In this document: positions 52,923-64,000 of the stretch, in pieces
Layout: every line of letters begins with the position of its first letter
How positions within the stretch are numbered: the stretch's first letter is position 1
From: Methylotenera sp.
GTDB lineage: Bacteria > Pseudomonadota > Gammaproteobacteria > Burkholderiales > Methylophilaceae
Direction of reading: 5' to 3'
Length of the DNA stretch: 64,000 bases
Assembly (NCBI RefSeq): GCF_030653755.1
Contig: NZ_JAURYU010000008.1
Location: forward strand, 1-64,000
The notes under the pieces: generated by a model
Databases searched by the model: none
What the model was told of the DNA's origin: nothing
The model's input: only the letters and a program-made list of their open reading frames with translations
Program-made: the position numbers and the translations under genes

Positions 52923-52941
52923 GATAATGATAACCGTTCTC
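52923..52941. promoter_or_regulatory. Fur box between the receptor operon and the tolC-macAB genes
   Basis: GATAATGATAACCGTTCTC matches the classic 19-base Fur site GATAATGATAATCATTATC at 16 positions. It lies 142 bp before the receptor and 94 bp before the plus-strand tolC start, so one site could control both. Confidence 0.75.
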
Positions 52942-57847: not shown

Positions 57848-58468
57848 ATGGCCAAAGATTGTTGTAACAGCGAATGCAGCAACCAGAAGCTACTAACGCC
57901 TAAATATAAGAAAGTACTTTGGGTCGCATTAGTCATAAATGCGACGATGTTTTTCGTAGAAATTCTCAGTGGACTTAATGCCCAATCAGTCTCGTTAATG
58001 GCTGATGCCATCGACTTTTTTGGTGATGCCATGAACTATGGCATATCTTTAGCAGTGTTATCTATGAGCCTTGCATGGCGTGCGCGTGCCGCGCTGTTTA
58101 AAGGGATGACAATGGGCAGTTTTGGATTATTAGTACTAGCCTACACCGTATGGTCTACCATGCATGGTGAAGTACCAGAAGCGTACACTATGGGGTTTGT
58201 AGGTTTTATTGCGCTTCTCGCGAATGTAAGTGTTGCCATGATGCTCTATGCCTATCGCGATGGAGACGCCAATATGCAATCAGTATGGCTATGCAGCAGA
58301 AATGATGCTATCGGGAATTTTGCCGTCATGATGGCAGCGCTAGGCGTATTAGGAAGTAAAAGCGCATGGCCTGATTTGATTGTGGCAGTGGTCATGGCCA
58401 GCCTTGGTGTATCAGCGGCGATACAGATAATAAAGCAAGCGAGATCGGAGTTGAATCACCAACAATAA
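57848..58468 (+). CDS. Cation transporter, CDF family (short)
   Basis: 206 residues with six hydrophobic helices. The metal-site aspartates appear in MADAIDFFGDAMNYG and SRNDAIGNF, corresponding to the HxxxD/DxxxD sites of cation-diffusion facilitators. The N-terminus has CC and C residues (KDCCNSECSNQ) that could bind metal. The C-terminal cytosolic domain of usual CDF proteins is missing. The metal (zinc, cobalt or other) cannot be said. Confidence 0.82.
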   Translation: MAKDCCNSECSNQKLLTPKYKKVLWVALVINATMFFVEILSGLNAQSVSLMADAIDFFGDAMNYGISLAVLSMSLAWRARAALFKGMTMGSFGLLVLAYTVWSTMHGEVPEAYTMGFVGFIALLANVSVAMMLYAYRDGDANMQSVWLCSRNDAIGNFAVMMAALGVLGSKSAWPDLIVAVVMASLGVSAAIQIIKQARSELNHQQ

Positions 58469-58652
58469 AATATGTGCGACTTCAACTTGTGAAAATTCAC
58501 AGTTACCATAGCCTCCGCATTACGTACAATCAAAAAAATTTGCAAGATACCAAAAAAAACGCTAATTACGATGGCAGCCAACCCAAGTCACACAAGCATG
58601 ACAAAAAATGGCACAATATTCACTGCGCAACCTTTAACCAACCAATAAGTAA

Positions 58653-59072
58653 CTACTTACTTTCGCTCACAAAACCCATTTTACTAACACCTGAGTTTTG
58701 CGCATCAGCCATCACTTCAGCCAACACTTGATAGCGCGTTTCTTTATCAGCTCGAATATTTAACTCTGGCTGTGGTTTCTTCTGGGCAATTTCTTTTAAC
58801 TTCAATTTCAGTTCACCTTGCACCAGCGGCATATCATTCCAGTACATTTTTCCTGATGCATCAATAGATACAGAAATCACTTCTGGCTTTTCAGGGATAG
58901 GCTCGCTACTTGTTTGTGGTAAATCAATTTTTACAGCATGCGTCAGCAATGGTGCGGTAATAATAAAAATCACCAATAACACCAACATCACATCCACTAA
59001 CGGTGTAGTGTTAATCTCAGACATAGGTGCCGAATGCGGCGCACCGCCGACATTGCTTCCTGACCCTATCAT
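58653..59072 (-). CDS. exbD: ExbD, TonB motor subunit
   Basis: 139 residues. The membrane helix holds the essential Asp in INTTPLVDVMLVLLVIFIITAP, near residue 27. The periplasmic domain follows. The start overlaps the exbB stop by four bases (ATGA). With ExbB and TonB it energises outer-membrane receptors such as the one at 50545-52781. Confidence 0.93.
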   Translation of the reverse strand: MIGSGSNVGGAPHSAPMSEINTTPLVDVMLVLLVIFIITAPLLTHAVKIDLPQTSSEPIPEKPEVISVSIDASGKMYWNDMPLVQGELKLKLKEIAQKKPQPELNIRADKETRYQVLAEVMADAQNSGVSKMGFVSESK

Positions 59073-59818
59073 GCTACGACCCCTGCAACATGCACAGCTT
59101 GGTCAGTAACGCCCTGTTTATGCGCGCGTGTAGTGCCTATCACCGCACCTGTCGTAATCAAGGTATGCAACTCGTAGCCAAATTTCTCAAGCGTTACCGA
59201 TAAAGCACGGTTACTACGCACAATTGCGTTATAAGCTAACACAGCTGGAATAGCGACAGCCAAACCTAGTGCCGTCATAATCAAAGCCTCACCTACTGGT
59301 CCTGCAACTTTATCCAATGTCGCCTGACCACTTAAGCTAATACTAGCAAGCGCATGATAAATACCCCACACTGTACCAAATAAGCCAACAAATGGTGACA
59401 CACTACCTACAGAAGCCAGCACAGTAAGTCCGCCTTCCATATTTGCATTTTCTTCTGCAATGCTACGGTTCATGGCGCGCGCGACAAATTCATCTTGTGC
59501 CACCATTTCAGTGCCTTTTACTGTACACAGTTTGTGATGCTCAGCCGCTAAAATCGCTTTTTCTGCCAGCCTAGCTAGCCCTGTATTAGCATATGCCTGA
59601 CTTTGCTTCATTGCCACAGCCAAACTTGGTGCTTGCCAAAAAGCCTGTAAAAATGACTGATATGCGCTACGCATACGCCATGCACTAATGCTTCTAGTCA
59701 CGATTAAATACCAACTCGCCACAGACATTGTTAACAATATCATGGCAACCAATATAGAAACTGGCCCACCTGCCGTGATAAATTCCCAACTATTAAACTC
59801 ATAACCGTTTTGCATCAT
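59069..59818 (-). CDS. exbB: ExbB, TonB motor subunit
   Basis: 249 residues, three membrane helices: near 20-40, and in SVGSVSPFVGLFGTVWGIYHALASIS and EALIMTALGLAVAIPAVLAYNAIVRS. Sequence and context (next to tonB) mark it as ExbB and separate it from TolQ at 36179. It follows tonB after 114 bp on the same strand. Confidence 0.93.
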   Translation of the reverse strand: MMQNGYEFNSWEFITAGGPVSILVAMILLTMSVASWYLIVTRSISAWRMRSAYQSFLQAFWQAPSLAVAMKQSQAYANTGLARLAEKAILAAEHHKLCTVKGTEMVAQDEFVARAMNRSIAEENANMEGGLTVLASVGSVSPFVGLFGTVWGIYHALASISLSGQATLDKVAGPVGEALIMTALGLAVAIPAVLAYNAIVRSNRALSVTLEKFGYELHTLITTGAVIGTTRAHKQGVTDQAVHVAGVVA

Positions 59819-59932
59819 TACCCTCGCTTAATTCTTAATCTGTTAATTGATTCAGCCCCATGTCTTACTGTTCATCAATCTACTTTTCATCAGCCTATAC
59901 ACGCATTAATCTATGCGTATTGATTGAGTGAC

Positions 59933-60775
59933 TTAACTACTCAATGTGAAATTTACTGGCACCAGTACATAAGCGCTAATTGGCTGATTACTACGTTTTG
60001 CTGGTACAAAACTCCATTTTTTAACAGCCTCAATGGCTGCCTGATCTAATTTATGATGGCCACTACTGGTATCTACTTTAACAGTCTCAGCTTTGCCATT
60101 TTCTGACACTAAAACTTTAAGTAACACTTTGCCTTGCTCCCCCATTCTTCTTGCTACCATTGGATAAGCAGGTGCTGGGTTATTTAAATAGGCAGCCCCA
60201 AAACTAGGTGGCTCAATCACTGGCGCAGCCGCTACCTTTTCATTGACAACTTTATCAGTCACTTCTGTTGTCTTTGCTAATTGTTGCGATTCAGCGGGCT
60301 TACTCTCTGCAACAACGGCCTCTTCGACCTTCTGTTCTACTACTGGCTCTACTTGCTCAATTTTTCTAACAGCTTCTTCATTCACGACCAGCTTTTCTTC
60401 TGAGACTTTCTGCTTTTGCACCACTGTTTTTTTCACTGATGGTTTTTGAACAGGTTGCACTTGCTCTACAGGTGATTTAGCTTCTGGAACATCTGCAACT
60501 TGGCTCACCAAACTCACCATCATTGGTGTTGTTAGCTTATTAAGGTCAACAGTTTCTGGTTTAGCGTTCAACAAACCAGCAACAGCAACCATATGCATCA
60601 GGGTCACTACAGCAAGCATTTTGTAAGAGATTGTTTTTTTGTTTTTACGTGCTGGATTAATATAATTGTTAATCGGAAAATGTTTTACATTAGATTTACT
60701 TGTAGCATCTACCTTGCTTACAAAAGGCTCCAAAAAGAAGTGAGTATTCACTGCAAGCTCTGAATTTGTCATCAT
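59933..60775 (-). CDS. tonB: TonB energy-transducing protein
   Basis: 280 residues: a cytosolic N-terminal 50 residues, a membrane helix near 51-68 (MLAVVTLMHMVAVAGLL), and a long linker rich in Val, Glu, Pro and Lys (about 95-195). The C-terminal domain contains YPMVARRMGEQGKVLLKVLVSENGKAETV and AIEAVKKWSFVPAKR. AGGAGG lies before two adjacent ATGs; the second has the better spacing. It follows hemP by 49 bp. Confidence 0.94.
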   Translation of the reverse strand: MMTNSELAVNTHFFLEPFVSKVDATSKSNVKHFPINNYINPARKNKKTISYKMLAVVTLMHMVAVAGLLNAKPETVDLNKLTTPMMVSLVSQVADVPEAKSPVEQVQPVQKPSVKKTVVQKQKVSEEKLVVNEEAVRKIEQVEPVVEQKVEEAVVAESKPAESQQLAKTTEVTDKVVNEKVAAAPVIEPPSFGAAYLNNPAPAYPMVARRMGEQGKVLLKVLVSENGKAETVKVDTSSGHHKLDQAAIEAVKKWSFVPAKRSNQPISAYVLVPVNFTLSS

Positions 60776-60824
60776 ACTTCCTCCTAACCTATTCCGTAAA
60801 AACTGTAATACTGCTAATGCAGTA

Positions 60825-60995
60825 CTACTTTGTAAGAATCAACTTACCCTGATTGGTAAGTCTCAAACGGTAATCTTCACCAACGTGCTTAATCACCAAC
60901 TCTCGCGCACCTGAAAACAACAACTCACTTGTTGTCACCCTAGCAACAGAAGACTCCTTAACTTTGGGTTCATGTTTTTTTTCATCCAGCATCAT
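60825..60995 (-). CDS. hemP: Hemin uptake protein HemP
   Basis: 56 residues (55 from the second ATG). It matches the HemP family: SVARVTTSELLFSGARELVIKHVGEDYRLRLTNQGKLILTK in outline, with the invariant LRLT and GKLILTK ending. HemP was named for hemin uptake, and in betaproteobacteria it activates iron-uptake gene expression. A Fur box lies at 61051-61069, 56 bp upstream, so hemP heads a hemP-tonB-exbB-exbD unit. Confidence 0.88.
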   Translation of the reverse strand: MMLDEKKHEPKVKESSVARVTTSELLFSGARELVIKHVGEDYRLRLTNQGKLILTK

Positions 60996-61050
60996 TTATC
61001 AGGCCCATTATCAAGTTGGTTATTTCACCCAAATTACTTTAAGCAATAAA

Positions 61051-61069
61051 GCTAATGATAATTGTTATC
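61051..61069. promoter_or_regulatory. Fur box upstream of hemP-tonB-exbB-exbD
   Basis: GCTAATGATAATTGTTATC matches the classic Fur site at 16 of 19 positions and has strong inverted symmetry (TGATAA-TTGTTATCA). Confidence 0.78.
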
Positions 61070-61186
61070 ATTTAGATTTGTCAATAGCTTTATGTATTAG
61101 CTTTGCTCTATGTGATTGATTTACTTAACTGCATCTACTAAATTACTGTACTTATTAAAATATTGCGCATACTAAAATTACGCTCA

Positions 61187-61459
61187 CTAGTGAACACTGC
61201 AATTAACGGCGGACTGTTGTGTGACAATGGCTTTTTCCTGTTGATACAACGCCAGCCTTGTGACAGCATCTGCTAGTAAAGTTTTTAAGGTATGCAAAGT
61301 GCCAGCATCTATTCGCAAGCTAATTGCACCTAGTTCCAGCTCTGCTACATTACAATTTTCGCAAAATATAATCTGACCACTTTCATTTCTAGACAATAAA
61401 ACTCGTAGGCACGAGGCTTGATTATTTGTGACGTTATCTAGCGCTTTTTTATTTTTCAT
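61187..61459 (-). CDS. Small protein of unknown function, related to the one at 62837-63043
   Basis: 90 residues. The core reads IIFCENCNVAELELGAISLRID, then a helix ending LADAVTRLALYQQ. The same scheme (ELE-[IL]-G-x-x-SLR-[IL], about 15 residues, then A-V-x-R-L) is found in the 68-residue product at 62837-63043, so the two look like paralogues. This copy has a CENC pair that could bind metal. AGGTG precedes the ATG, and the HemP-like gene ends seven bases upstream. I recognise no known family. Confidence 0.72.
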   Translation of the reverse strand: MKNKKALDNVTNNQASCLRVLLSRNESGQIIFCENCNVAELELGAISLRIDAGTLHTLKTLLADAVTRLALYQQEKAIVTQQSAVNCSVH

Positions 61460-61466
61460 GTCACAC

Positions 61467-61688
61467 CTATTTAGTTAGTATCAATTTATTTTGTTTAGTA
61501 ATTCGTAAAAAATAAGTTTCATCTTCGTGATCAATCATCACTTCTTTCACATTTGTAAACAGCTTGTCGCTATTTAATCTTTTTATTCTAGAAATCTTAA
61601 TGTCTTCTTGCGTACGCGTACTGTCTGTCACAATTGCTATATCAAAACTCATATGCTCTTTAGAGGTTAAATTAGTAATAATTTTCAT
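61467..61688 (-). CDS. HemP-like protein
   Basis: 73 residues. The last about 40 (ISRIKRLNSDKLFTNVKEVMIDHEDETYFLRITKQNKLILTK in outline) match HemP, including the terminal LILTK. The first about 30 residues are an added N-terminus not seen in the HemP at 60825. A second HemP in the same iron region is unusual. It lies seven bases before the 90-residue gene and 167 bp after the S4 paralogue, so it may have its own promoter in that gap. Confidence 0.8.
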   Translation of the reverse strand: MKIITNLTSKEHMSFDIAIVTDSTRTQEDIKISRIKRLNSDKLFTNVKEVMIDHEDETYFLRITKQNKLILTK

Positions 61689-61855
61689 GATGGCAGCCCA
61701 GTTAAGTCACTAACATTAAAAAGATGGCCGACTTACATAAGGGTTATCCTTAATGCAACCATAAATGATCTGTTAAGATCAAGGAGACGCATGTTGCCAT
61801 GCATTTACTACATTTGAGCAGCTGTTAGGAGCCACTCAAATTCTGCTACCAACCA

Positions 61856-62473
61856 CTACACGCGGTTAGCGTAATATTCAACCACAAGCTGCACATCCAC
61901 AGGGAACGGCACATCACTTACCGCGGGTAAGTGCGCCACTGTCACCACTTGTGTTGCTGTATCCCAAGCCAACCACTCTGGGCGTTCTAAAGAGGGTTGC
62001 TTTACTGTTTCTACCACCATTGGGATATTTTTACTTTTAGGCTTAACAGTGATTTCATCACCTATATTTAATCTTATCGATGGAATATTAGCGGGCTTGC
62101 CGTTTAACATTAGGTGTCCATGGCTCACTAACTGCCTTGCAGCAATCACATTTGGCGCAAAGCCAGCACGGAAAACCACGTTATCCATTCGACGTTCGAG
62201 TAGCTGCAACAATCTTTCACCTGTTGGCTCCTTACCTTTACGCGCATCCAGTATTAATCTGCGCATTTGGGTTTCTGTAAGCCCGTAATTGAAACGAATC
62301 TTTTGTTTTTCCTGTAGCTTCACACCAAAATCAGAGCGGCGCTTACGCGATGCTTTATTACCATGCTGACCTGGCGGCGTTGGCCGTGCTTCAATTGTTT
62401 TACGTGACAACCCAGGTAAATCTACCCCTAATGCACGCATCACTTTTAATCGTGGGCCAATAAATCGAGACAT
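61856..62473 (-). CDS. Ribosomal protein S4 paralogue
   Basis: 205 residues, collinear with S4 over its length: MSRFIGPRLKVMRALG at the start, PPGQHG, EKQKIRFNYGLTE, LLQLLERRMDNVVFRAGF, and the S4 RNA-binding domain ARQLVSHGHLMLNGKPANIPSI. The end is VVEYYANR. It contains no cysteine. It is not in the alpha operon (no rpsM, rpsK, rpoA nearby), so it is very probably a second S4; the canonical copy should lie elsewhere. AAGGA precedes the ATG. It lies in an apparently Fur-controlled cluster. Replacement of the main S4 during iron shortage, or a regulatory RNA-binding role, are both possible. Confidence 0.9.
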   Translation of the reverse strand: MSRFIGPRLKVMRALGVDLPGLSRKTIEARPTPPGQHGNKASRKRRSDFGVKLQEKQKIRFNYGLTETQMRRLILDARKGKEPTGERLLQLLERRMDNVVFRAGFAPNVIAARQLVSHGHLMLNGKPANIPSIRLNIGDEITVKPKSKNIPMVVETVKQPSLERPEWLAWDTATQVVTVAHLPAVSDVPFPVDVQLVVEYYANRV

Positions 62474-62504
62474 CTTGTTTCCTTATCTATTTAATATTTA
62501 TCAC

Positions 62505-62804
62505 TTATTGCAATGTGTTATGTGTGGCCAACAACCAATTGTCTTCTGTGCCATACTCATTGACGATTGCTTTCCATTGCTTAACCAAGCGCTCTGCAAT
62601 ATCTTCAATCAGCTTTGTATCTGCATACTCAGGTGCGGTTAACTTATTAGCTAATTCACTCGCCAACACTGCCAGCTCATGTGATGGCTTAAGCGCATAT
62701 TGCGTAGCTACACAGCAAATTGCTGCCATTAACTCTCTTGAGGTTGGTAACTCAGGGTCAAATAATTCACTTGGTGCTTTTGATGCTGATACTTGTTTTT
62801 GCAT
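62505..62804 (-). CDS. Unknown helical protein in the Fur-linked cluster
   Basis: 99 residues from the ATG at 62804; a GTG frame begins four codons upstream. GTGAG lies seven bases before the ATG. The product is helical and soluble, with FDPELPTSRELMAAICCVATQYALKPSHELAVLASELANKL in the first two thirds and DIAERLVKQWKAIVNEYG after. It has adjacent Cys residues. I know no family for it. It lies between the 68-residue gene (gap 32 bp) and the S4 paralogue (gap 31 bp), so cotranscription is likely. Confidence 0.68.
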   Translation of the reverse strand: MQKQVSASKAPSELFDPELPTSRELMAAICCVATQYALKPSHELAVLASELANKLTAPEYADTKLIEDIAERLVKQWKAIVNEYGTEDNWLLATHNTLQ

Positions 62805-62836
62805 GTTTGTACTCACTTGGTTTATTCACAGTATTA

Positions 62837-63043
62837 CTACACTTGATGCAACTCAGTTTGCATCACCAACCTTGCCACTGCTTTACGCATCATTTCATTC
62901 ATCATAAAAAAGTTACGCACTTCTAGCCGCAATGAAGTGCCTCCAATCTCTAGCTCAACAATGTCTTTTGCTTTGTTATAAAGCACCTTGCAATCTTCAT
63001 TACCTGTCAGTTTCGCTTGGCTAATAATTAGTTGCTTACTCAT
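62837..63043 (-). CDS. Small protein of unknown function, first gene of the Fur-linked cluster
   Basis: 68 residues. CKVLYNKAKDIVELEIGGTSLRLEVRNFF is followed by an amphipathic helix MNEMMRKAVARLVMQTE. It shares its core with the 90-residue product at 61187-61459, which has the same ELE-[IL]-G, SLR-[IL] and AV-x-RL positions. GGAG lies six bases before the ATG. A Fur-like box at 63069-63087 is 26 bp upstream of the start, inside the presumed promoter. Confidence 0.72.
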   Translation of the reverse strand: MSKQLIISQAKLTGNEDCKVLYNKAKDIVELEIGGTSLRLEVRNFFMMNEMMRKAVARLVMQTELHQV

Positions 63044-63068
63044 GTCGTACTCCGATCTATGAATTTAA

Positions 63069-63087
63069 ATAAATGATAATCATTCTC
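63069..63087. promoter_or_regulatory. Fur box upstream of the S4-paralogue cluster
   Basis: ATAAATGATAATCATTCTC matches the classic Fur site at 15 of 19 positions, with the core AATGATAATCATT intact. It lies just upstream of the 68-residue gene and faces no other gene. Confidence 0.75.
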
Positions 63088-63389
63088 ATTTGATATGTCA
63101 ACAATTAATTTCATACTAAATTGGTAAGGTATTATTTTTAAACTAATCTAAATTGCATACGCATACAGATGGATATCCCACACGCGGGCATATACCGTTA
63201 TAGTTTAATGAGGGTAATCAGAAGAGTTAATGACAAGGAAATAACTTGTCGAGGTATTTAAATAAGAAGCAGTGAGACAGTAAATTAAGCGCGGTTATAC
63301 CGTTGCGAAGACGTTATAAGCATTATGGGTGCCTGAAAAAAAGACTTTTCAAAAGATAAAGCTGCGCTAGTTGAGGCAAAACGTGAGAG
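63088..63389. other. Non-coding stretch
   Basis: No ORF with coding character. It leads from the Fur box into the structured region at 63390-63550. Confidence 0.5.
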
Positions 63390-63550
63390 CCTGTGTGTGT
63401 AAGTATAACTAAGCACACACAGGAAGAGCGGCACCTCTTAAAAAAGCCAGCAGCATACTTTGCAAGGCAGTCCGAGTAAAGTATGCATTTATAGAGGCTT
63501 TGAAAATATACCTTGTGGTGCCGTGCTCTGTAGATTGTTCGCGCACAAGG
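63390..63550. ncRNA. Unexplained structured region, possible RNA
   Basis: A hairpin CCTGTGTGTG/CACACACAGG (63390-63399 and 63414-63423) is followed by a nested set. The outer stem is GAGC+GGCACC (63426-63435) with GGTGCC..GCTC (63517-63528). Inside are AAAGCC/GGCTTT (63443-63448 and 63496-63501) and GCATACTTT/AAAGTATGC (63453-63461 and 63478-63486). A competing stem CCTTGTG/CACAAGG (63511-63517 and 63544-63550) shares a base with the outer stem. No known RNA family was recognised. It could be a transcribed RNA or a mobile-element end; the strand is unknown. Confidence 0.45.
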
Positions 63551-63580
63551 CTTTTGGTTACTAAGTGTTTTGATTAAAAA

Positions 63581-63763
63581 TTATTGGCCTGTACCACCAG
63601 TGCCTGTGCCTGCCCCAGTACTAGCATCTCCTGTACCTGAGCTCTCCATCTCTGTAGCACCAGTTCCTGTGCCTGCGCCACTATGAGATTTTGGCTCCGC
63701 ACATCCTACGCAAAAAACGATAGAGATTAGCGCTAATATTTTCCAAACATTGAATGTTTTCAT
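63581..63763 (-). CDS. Small lipoprotein with Gly/Thr-rich repeats
   Basis: 60 residues. A signal peptide ends in the lipobox CVGC, giving lipidated Cys21. The rest is low-complexity, with repeats of GAGTGTG and related blocks and a few acidic residues. A ribosome-binding AAGGAG lies before the ATG. No enzyme function is expected; it may act in the envelope. The structured region at 63390-63550 lies just beyond its stop codon. Confidence 0.65.
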   Translation of the reverse strand: MKTFNVWKILALISIVFCVGCAEPKSHSGAGTGTGATEMESSGTGDASTGAGTGTGGTGQ

Positions 63764-64000
63764 AAGAGAACTCCTTTAGATTTAATGGGTATTGATTGAA
63801 AAATATTATGCGTTTAAAGTTAACTTTGTATGTGCGGTGACTAGCATAGTAAATTTATAACGTGAAATTAATAGTAAGAAGAATCCCCCGTGCTGCAAAA
63901 CGATTAACCCTTCACTCGACCGATTCAGTACAAACTTATGGTAATTTCTTAACTAAAATACACTCAATCAGACAACGGTAAATTTCATTAGCTCATATAC
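63764..64000. other. Terminal stretch without a recognised gene
   Basis: It holds the promoter side of the lipoprotein gene. The final about 200 bases show no ORF, tRNA or strong dyad. Confidence 0.5.

Follow-up and report, generated by a model that had tools for sequence, protein, structure and literature searches.

Why would a bacterium keep a second gene for the small-subunit ribosomal protein S4 (uS4), a primary binder of ribosomal RNA, and why would this gene sit among genes for iron uptake? The question is raised by a minus-strand gene cluster in a 64,000-nucleotide stretch of DNA from Methylotenera sp. (positions 1 to 64,000 of NZ_JAURYU010000008.1; hereafter the window, which belongs to contig C9 of the 2.49-Mb genome G000), where a full-length S4 paralog devoid of cysteines stands behind a candidate box for the iron regulator Fur. 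The answer that we favor, with a probability of roughly 0.65, is that the cluster would supply, under repression by Fur, a uS4 without cysteines that takes the place of an iron-sulfur uS4 and thereby spares iron.

A cysteine-free second S4

The paralog, which an earlier note on this DNA had described as a full-length S4 free of cysteines, comprises 205 residues with zero cysteines, scores 216.8 bits against TIGR01017 (cut-off 177.2), also passes PRK05327 and matches both PF00163 and PF01479 over its full length. The same note had suggested looking for the canonical rpsD in the alpha operon, and contig C42 of the same genome indeed has this gene, flanked by rpsK and rpoA, making the window gene a second copy. 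The canonical S4 carries cysteines 9, 12, 26 and 31 plus cysteine 99, and in our alignment the loop bearing the second cysteine pair of the canonical protein is shorter by six residues in the window protein (seven residues as counted in PMC3087516). None of ten aligned relatives of the cysteine-free S4 has a cysteine in that region, with one of them carrying a single cysteine at position 166, and the canonical copy has retained its four cysteines in the window genome and in all seven other two-copy genomes read (L161-L167). Purifying selection on the cysteine-free S4 is strong, with a median ratio of nonsynonymous to synonymous substitution rates (dN/dS) of 0.033 over 37 pairs among the closer relatives of the window, and the gene is predicted to encode a functional uS4 without a cofactor. 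Judged by this protein, the closest relatives of the window are Methylotenera. Locus L088 (with an N in its sequence) and near-duplicates were left out of alignments A6 and A7, and L086, of which the open reading frame (ORF) is too long, was kept in the S4 tree and appears there as a long branch.

All five ORFs of the cluster that the earlier note had outlined at 61187-63087 are present on the minus strand; its HemP-like protein is a clear PF10636 match, and its Fur box, placed at 63069-63087, is recovered as a 7-1-7 motif at 63074-63088 with a single mismatch. The cluster in fact reaches beyond these limits to hemP-tonB-exbB-exbD (60995-58653), and its features are, in the order of transcription:

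63073..63101, minus strand: promoter-like site 1, TTGACA-17-TATCAT, 11/12 (promoter scan), overlapping Fur box 1
63074..63088, no strand assigned: Fur box 1 (7-1-7), 13/14 positions (motif scan)
62837..63043, minus strand: p68, 68 residues, D90 family (ORF and family comparison)
62505..62804, minus strand: hel99, helical protein of 99 residues, without a family match above cut-off (ORF and structure prediction)
61856..62473, minus strand: cysteine-free full-length S4 (uS4) paralog, 205 residues (TIGR01017, PRK05327, PF00163, PF01479)
61467..61688, minus strand: HemP-family protein, 73 residues (PF10636, 63 bits against a cut-off of 25)
61187..61459, minus strand: D90, 90 residues, CxxC motif, weakly DUF6686-like (ORF, profile search and structure prediction)
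61055..61084, minus strand: promoter-like site 2, TTGACA-18-TATCAT, 11/12 (promoter scan), overlapping Fur box 2
61056..61070, no strand assigned: Fur box 2 (7-1-7), 13/14 positions (motif scan)
60825..60995, minus strand: second HemP-family protein, 56 residues (PF10636, 61.1 bits against a cut-off of 25)
59933..60775, minus strand: TonB (PF03544)
59069..59818, minus strand: ExbB/TolQ-type proton channel subunit (profile searches)
58653..59072, minus strand: ExbD/TolR-type subunit (profile searches)

The layout resembles HemP-TonB-ExbB-ExbD iron operons in that hemP-tonB-exbB-exbD lie behind a Fur box, as they do in the congener G304 (Fur-HemP-tonB-exbBD), but differs from them in that p68-hel99-S4-HemP-D90 stands before. 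The two HemP-family proteins (60825-60995 and 61467-61688) are encoded less than 1 kb apart, each behind its own Fur box. The ExbB/ExbD-type proteins (58653-59818) score higher against TolQ/TolR models (170 and 112 bits) than against ExbB/ExbD models, all of them below cut-off. Further out, the window encodes a cation diffusion facilitator-like protein of 206 residues on the plus strand (57848-58468; 70.6 bits, below the family cut-off of 82.35) and a Gly/Ser/Thr-rich, lipoprotein-like ORF of 60 residues on the minus strand (63581-63763; no NCBIfam match and a weak Pfam match to New_glue, below cut-off). No Rfam family reached its gathering threshold within 58000-64000.

Fur boxes and neighboring iron genes

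Fur boxes were sought with a 15-base motif, TGATAATNATTATCA, which was scored over 14 positions. Its 7-1-7 form follows previous work on Fur boxes (PMC3050691). Boxes 1 and 2 differ from this motif by one mismatch each, and only five places in the whole 2.49-Mb genome come that close, two of them within this cluster (63074 and 61056). By eye, the remaining three lie just upstream of a receptor-like start (C58), inside a receptor-like ORF (C23) and inside another ORF (C48). Up to two mismatches are found at 32 forward matches genome-wide versus 17 for a reversed control pattern. The top two promoter-like sites of 60750-63400, both on the minus strand, coincide with Fur boxes 1 and 2; a Fur box overlapping a promoter is the classic layout of Fur repression, and by its motifs the cluster has the makings of a Fur regulon member. 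The genome encodes a Fur protein (192 bits against an equivalog cut-off of 146) as well as a second, divergent member of the Fur family.

Upstream Fur boxes recur at related loci. Within about 260 bp before the first gene, 26 of 35 loci carrying hel99 have a box matching at least 12/14 positions and 31 of 35 one matching at least 11/14, with a background expectation of about 1% per 270 bp for the former, and the counts are not independent because the scanned loci are related. L072, L109 and L116 score 8 through over-long ORF starts that shift the scanned stretch, and a wider scan finds 12/14 in each of them.

Linkage of the cysteine-free S4 to iron genes extends beyond close relatives. Across 84,980 species genomes, the N-terminal signature was confirmed at 143 places, of which 80 were retained; 66 of the latter are betaproteobacterial or close to it by record title (including one labeled Gammaproteobacteria and one Proteobacteria), and the other 14 come from Myxococcota, Deltaproteobacteria, Nitrospirota, Kouleothrix, Oligoflexales and unlabeled records. 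An iron-uptake gene (tagged as TonB, ExbB, ExbD, HemP, receptor, PepSY or FecI with a few reference proteins, so that genes can be missed) lies within 5 kb at 49 of the 66 betaproteobacterial-type loci versus 1 of the 14 others. The partners vary, from tonB-exbBD in Methylophilaceae and FecI-FecR-receptor near the copy of Nitrosomonas europaea (L070) to HemP plus receptor in Dechloromonas, receptor plus PepSY in L053/L124 and ferritin-like plus Bfd proteins in L085 and L095. At the level of sequence, the iron link of the S4 paralog is real. DUF2325 proteins are also encoded near the cysteine-free S4 at L048 (6920-8287) and L099 (9589-10917).

The paralog itself was found in 54 of 150 genomes of the family (>280 bits; next best match 141) and in 11 of 300 genomes of the order (>240 bits; all others <150). 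In the class, for which 369 genomes were searched, a score above 200 bits is reached by the window genome alone. Three genomes of one other family (G589, G794 and G700) each have a single match of 192-197 bits, a cysteine-free S4 with neighbors that do not look iron-like, which perhaps represents a separate replacement without iron linkage. By eye, this S4 adjoins pseudouridine synthase-like and ScpB-like genes (L196-L198).

Genomes with the cysteine-free S4 as their only S4

In nine of the 54 paralog-bearing genomes of the family, the canonical S4 was not found; when searched with PF00163, these genomes gave solely the cysteine-free S4, with two copies in G353. Such searches can miss genes, since the complete genome G010 yielded no S4 at all, and the alpha operon was therefore read directly. 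Eight genomes (G025, G072, G335, G344, G353, G362, G311 and G300) show rpsM-rpsK-rpoA with no S4 and 62-90 bp between rpsK and rpoA, where the control G116 has rpsD; the ninth, G416, was excluded from the sole-copy set because its assembly gave no rpsK match. Five of the eight match Methylobacillus species, namely M. arboreus (G025), M. caricis (G072), M. rhizosphaerae (G335), M. gramineus (G344) and M. glycogenes (G362), and G311 matches Methylovorus sp. MM2. All eight form one clade nested within two-copy lineages (support of 97 in a Shimodaira-Hasegawa-like approximate likelihood ratio test, quick method). Their S4 proteins are orthologs with 72-75% identity to that of the window, and the status as sole S4 is theirs and not that of the window copy. 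As the only S4 of this clade, the cysteine-free protein must be a complete and working ribosomal S4 there. Loss of the cysteine-bearing gene in M. flagellatus KT had already been reported in 2009 (PMC3087516). In G353, 143 kb separate the two loci (L215 and L217), which score equally in the search and each include D90-tonB-exbB-exbD, in agreement with a repeat of 140 kb described in M. flagellatus (PMC3087516).

The position of the Fur box differs in this clade. None of six sole-copy loci has an upstream box of at least 12/14, and in all six a 12/14 box separates S4 from D90, as it does in 5 of the 35 other loci; both copies of G353 follow the sole-copy pattern. In G300, S4 lies near htpG with no Fur box of at least 11/14 beside it, and a hemP-tonB operon is found elsewhere with a 13/14 box at its start. 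This placement follows a simple logic, since a sole S4 cannot be switched off by iron. The box in the S4-D90 gap would leave D90-tonB-exbBD under Fur control in the sole-copy loci.

Hel99 is present in 44 of 45 two-copy genomes of the family and in none of the 8 sole-copy ones, where two-copy means a second, canonical-type S4 match by score and G416, which has hel99, is excluded. These counts suggested a factor for S4 exchange. This idea loses force since the sole-copy genomes belong to a single clade and since there are p68-hel99-D90 cassettes without S4. The latter, each behind a Fur box, are found in G411, G396 and G348, which have their S4 paralog elsewhere, and in G427, which has none (L237 4887-5694, L238 5004-5835, L239 4558-5616 and L240 4039-5150; genus matches to Methylophilus). 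The congener G381 has Fur-p68-D90-Fur-HemP-tonB-exbBD, lacking hel99, S4 and the first HemP. Together with the S4-less cassettes and the locus of G304, this argues that p68, hel99 and D90 look like small proteins regulated by iron irrespective of S4, and that hel99 and S4 seem to have entered or left this operon as one unit.

We further noticed that p68 and D90 belong to one family, which the earlier note had not remarked; a p68 query finds matches in 5 of 300 genomes of the order, and in the four relatives the match sits at the place of D90. D90 scores 21.2 bits against DUF6686 (cut-off 23.9), with 9 of 29 relatives matching at an E value of 0.01, and is predicted to fold into four strands and one long helix (predicted local distance difference test score, pLDDT, of 84), while three helices are predicted for hel99 (mean pLDDT 76.8; L116 was dropped from its first alignment). 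Neither protein has a Pfam match above cut-off or, for the window copies, an NCBIfam match above cut-off, and neither predicted fold has a match in the PDB at an E value of 0.001. The trio of p68, hel99 and D90 apparently represents undescribed iron-regulated small proteins, no literature search having been made for it.

Iron sparing and its alternatives

The proposed switch would work as follows. With plentiful iron, iron-loaded Fur would repress the p68-hel99-S4 transcript and the uS4 of the alpha operon would be used, its cysteine motif probably carrying an Fe4S4 cluster as in Thermus. With scarce iron, Fur would leave the promoter, and the cysteine-free S4 would be made at the same time as HemP and the uptake system of TonB, ExbB and ExbD; the 30S subunits assembled from then on would contain a uS4 independent of iron-sulfur clusters, sparing iron and keeping ribosome assembly running. 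The genomes themselves provide the basis of this model in the form of two S4 copies, cysteine loss, Fur boxes on promoter-like sites, iron linkage, purifying selection and the sole-S4 clade; we infer Fur binding, induction, the Fe4S4 cluster in the canonical S4 of this lineage and exchange in the ribosome.

The cofactor is suggested by work on Thermus thermophilus, where long-wavelength data of Rozov et al. (2019) confirmed Fe4S4 on the zinc finger of uS4, so that one zinc ion and one Fe4S4 cluster replace the three zinc ions assigned earlier (PMC6555806). The canonical S4 of the window genome resembles this protein in its cysteines 9, 12, 26 and 31, and by analogy the canonical S4 of betaproteobacteria would carry Fe4S4 as well; unlike in our case, neither a paralog nor iron regulation is mentioned in the accessible part of that paper. 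If S4 bears Fe4S4, a cysteine-free S4 under Fur, and not Zur, is what would be called for. The Zur-controlled zinc-free paralogs (YkgM/bL31B, YtiA and the mycobacterial alternative ribosomal proteins, AltRPs) are alike in that a metal-repressed copy without cysteines can replace a cysteine-bearing protein and differ in regulator, metal and protein, which here are Fur, iron and uS4.

Cysteine-free S4 proteins as such are not new. Chen, Roberts and Luthey-Schulten distinguished C+ and C- forms of S4 in 2009, took the cysteines as zinc ligands and named the cysteine-free duplicates of N. europaea and M. flagellatus (PMC3087516). The window protein has the traits of their class C-(IV), with the four cysteines and the loop indel absent, PGxHG kept (as PPGQHG) and a locus outside the alpha operon, but was found in a Fur/iron operon where the earlier account saw zinc economy without a Zur site. 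Their search for Zur sites near S4 paralogs came back empty, they did not settle how these genes are regulated, and the word iron is absent from the accessible text (PMC3087516). Fur control, the iron operon, the moved Fur box, the clade-wide replacement and the Fe4S4 reading all go beyond what is accessible of that study. The statement of the earlier note that such a paralog is not described hence has to give way for the duplicates, published as zinc variants, and stands for the iron link. Among open-licence PMC papers, no iron- or Fur-regulated S4 paralog surfaced by title or start of abstract; the terms ribosomal, rpsD and hemP are absent from the accessible part of a paper on N. europaea Fur (PMC3050691), and a study of Corynebacterium diphtheriae DtxR lists the canonical rpsD operon (PMC524172). 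The link of the cysteine-free S4 to Fur and iron appears to be new.

Several observations weigh against our proposal. The assignment of Fe4S4 to uS4 comes from Thermus crystals only, after zinc had been assigned earlier (PMC6555806). A 19-bp Fur consensus (up to three mismatches) matches the window at 52923 and at 61051, which is box 2, and misses box 1 (63074), and two of the five best places for the 7-1-7 motif in the genome fall within ORFs (C23 and C48). The paralog is absent from 96 of 150 genomes of the family, and at 17 of the 66 betaproteobacterial-type loci none of the tagged iron genes lies within 5 kb. Fur evidence outside Methylophilaceae-type loci is thin, given that 9 of the 25 betaproteobacterial loci lacking hel99, versus 2 of 14 other loci, reach p ≤0.03 in simple base shuffles, that N. 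europaea (L070), which does have hel99, offers a best match of only 10/14 (shuffle p 0.28), and that the motif scan detected no upstream Fur-box signal at L092, L103 and L106. The weak score of N. europaea and the two motif places within ORFs reduced the probability of our proposal only marginally. Finally, two of the six sole-copy loci do have an upstream box of 11/14, and the sole-copy genomes, being one clade, count as one loss event.

S4 represses the alpha operon in E. coli, and low iron might induce the cysteine-free S4 mainly to alter fidelity, mRNA choice or alpha-operon repression, with cofactor sparing as an incidental effect. Such remodeling of translation control would be in line with the reduced accuracy of uS4 mutants (PMC12186496), with a zinc-free bL31 paralog that also modulates rpmE (PMC10931766) and with the near-constant company of hel99 in two-copy genomes, but in the sole-copy clade the cysteine-free form acts as a general S4, and the loss of the cysteine loop is its defining change. 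We consider this alternative unlikely, and the regulation of RNA under iron stress that the earlier note had entertained is not supported as the main role.

It seems less likely still that the protein is a classical zinc-sparing paralog, as proposed in 2009, with zinc in the cysteine motif of the canonical copy. The sorting of S4 forms into zinc and non-zinc ones (PMC3087516) speaks for it, as does a CobW-type, metallochaperone-like gene that by eye adjoins the second, divergent Fur-family regulator. Zur control is not supported, since the best match to a Zur consensus in 61856-63400 reaches 10/14 compared to 13/14 for Fur (with a best score of 11, at two places, in the whole window); the TonB, HemP and receptor genes nearby, the absence of Zur sites from the 2009 search (PMC3087516) and the Fe4S4 of Thermus uS4 (PMC6555806) likewise argue against zinc. 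Least probable of all is that the paralog is a spare S4 which arrived by horizontal transfer, ended up in a Fur operon and is expressed there without a specific role, which would agree with the transfer from Cyanobacteria inferred for S4 duplicates in 2009 (PMC3087516) and with congeners G381 and G304 that have the locus without S4, but not with a dN/dS of about 0.03 or with iron linkage that recurs with differing neighbors (tonB-exbBD; FecI/FecR-receptor; PepSY; ferritin/Bfd).

The iron-sparing replacement remains our preferred explanation, and the earlier note's reading of an iron-linked S4 paralog is supported in that this S4 is not the only copy and its iron linkage is conserved, with upstream Fur boxes recurring in Methylophilaceae. 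We think it fairly probable that the locus would be a Fur-driven iron switch of the ribosome, the first to do for iron what the zinc/Zur paralogs do for zinc, and that in one lineage the iron-free ribosome has become fixed and its S4 has been released from Fur. The proposal offers an answer to the absence of Zur sites at cysteine-free S4 duplicates in the 2009 study, and the structural ambiguity between zinc and Fe4S4 becomes testable in bacteria that are culturable and non-pathogenic, among them Methylotenera and Methylobacillus. If the proposal is true, Fe4S4 in bacterial uS4 would be physiological and costly enough to spare, giving a physiological argument that the cluster of Thermus uS4 exists in cells, and the ribosome would join the iron economy of bacteria.

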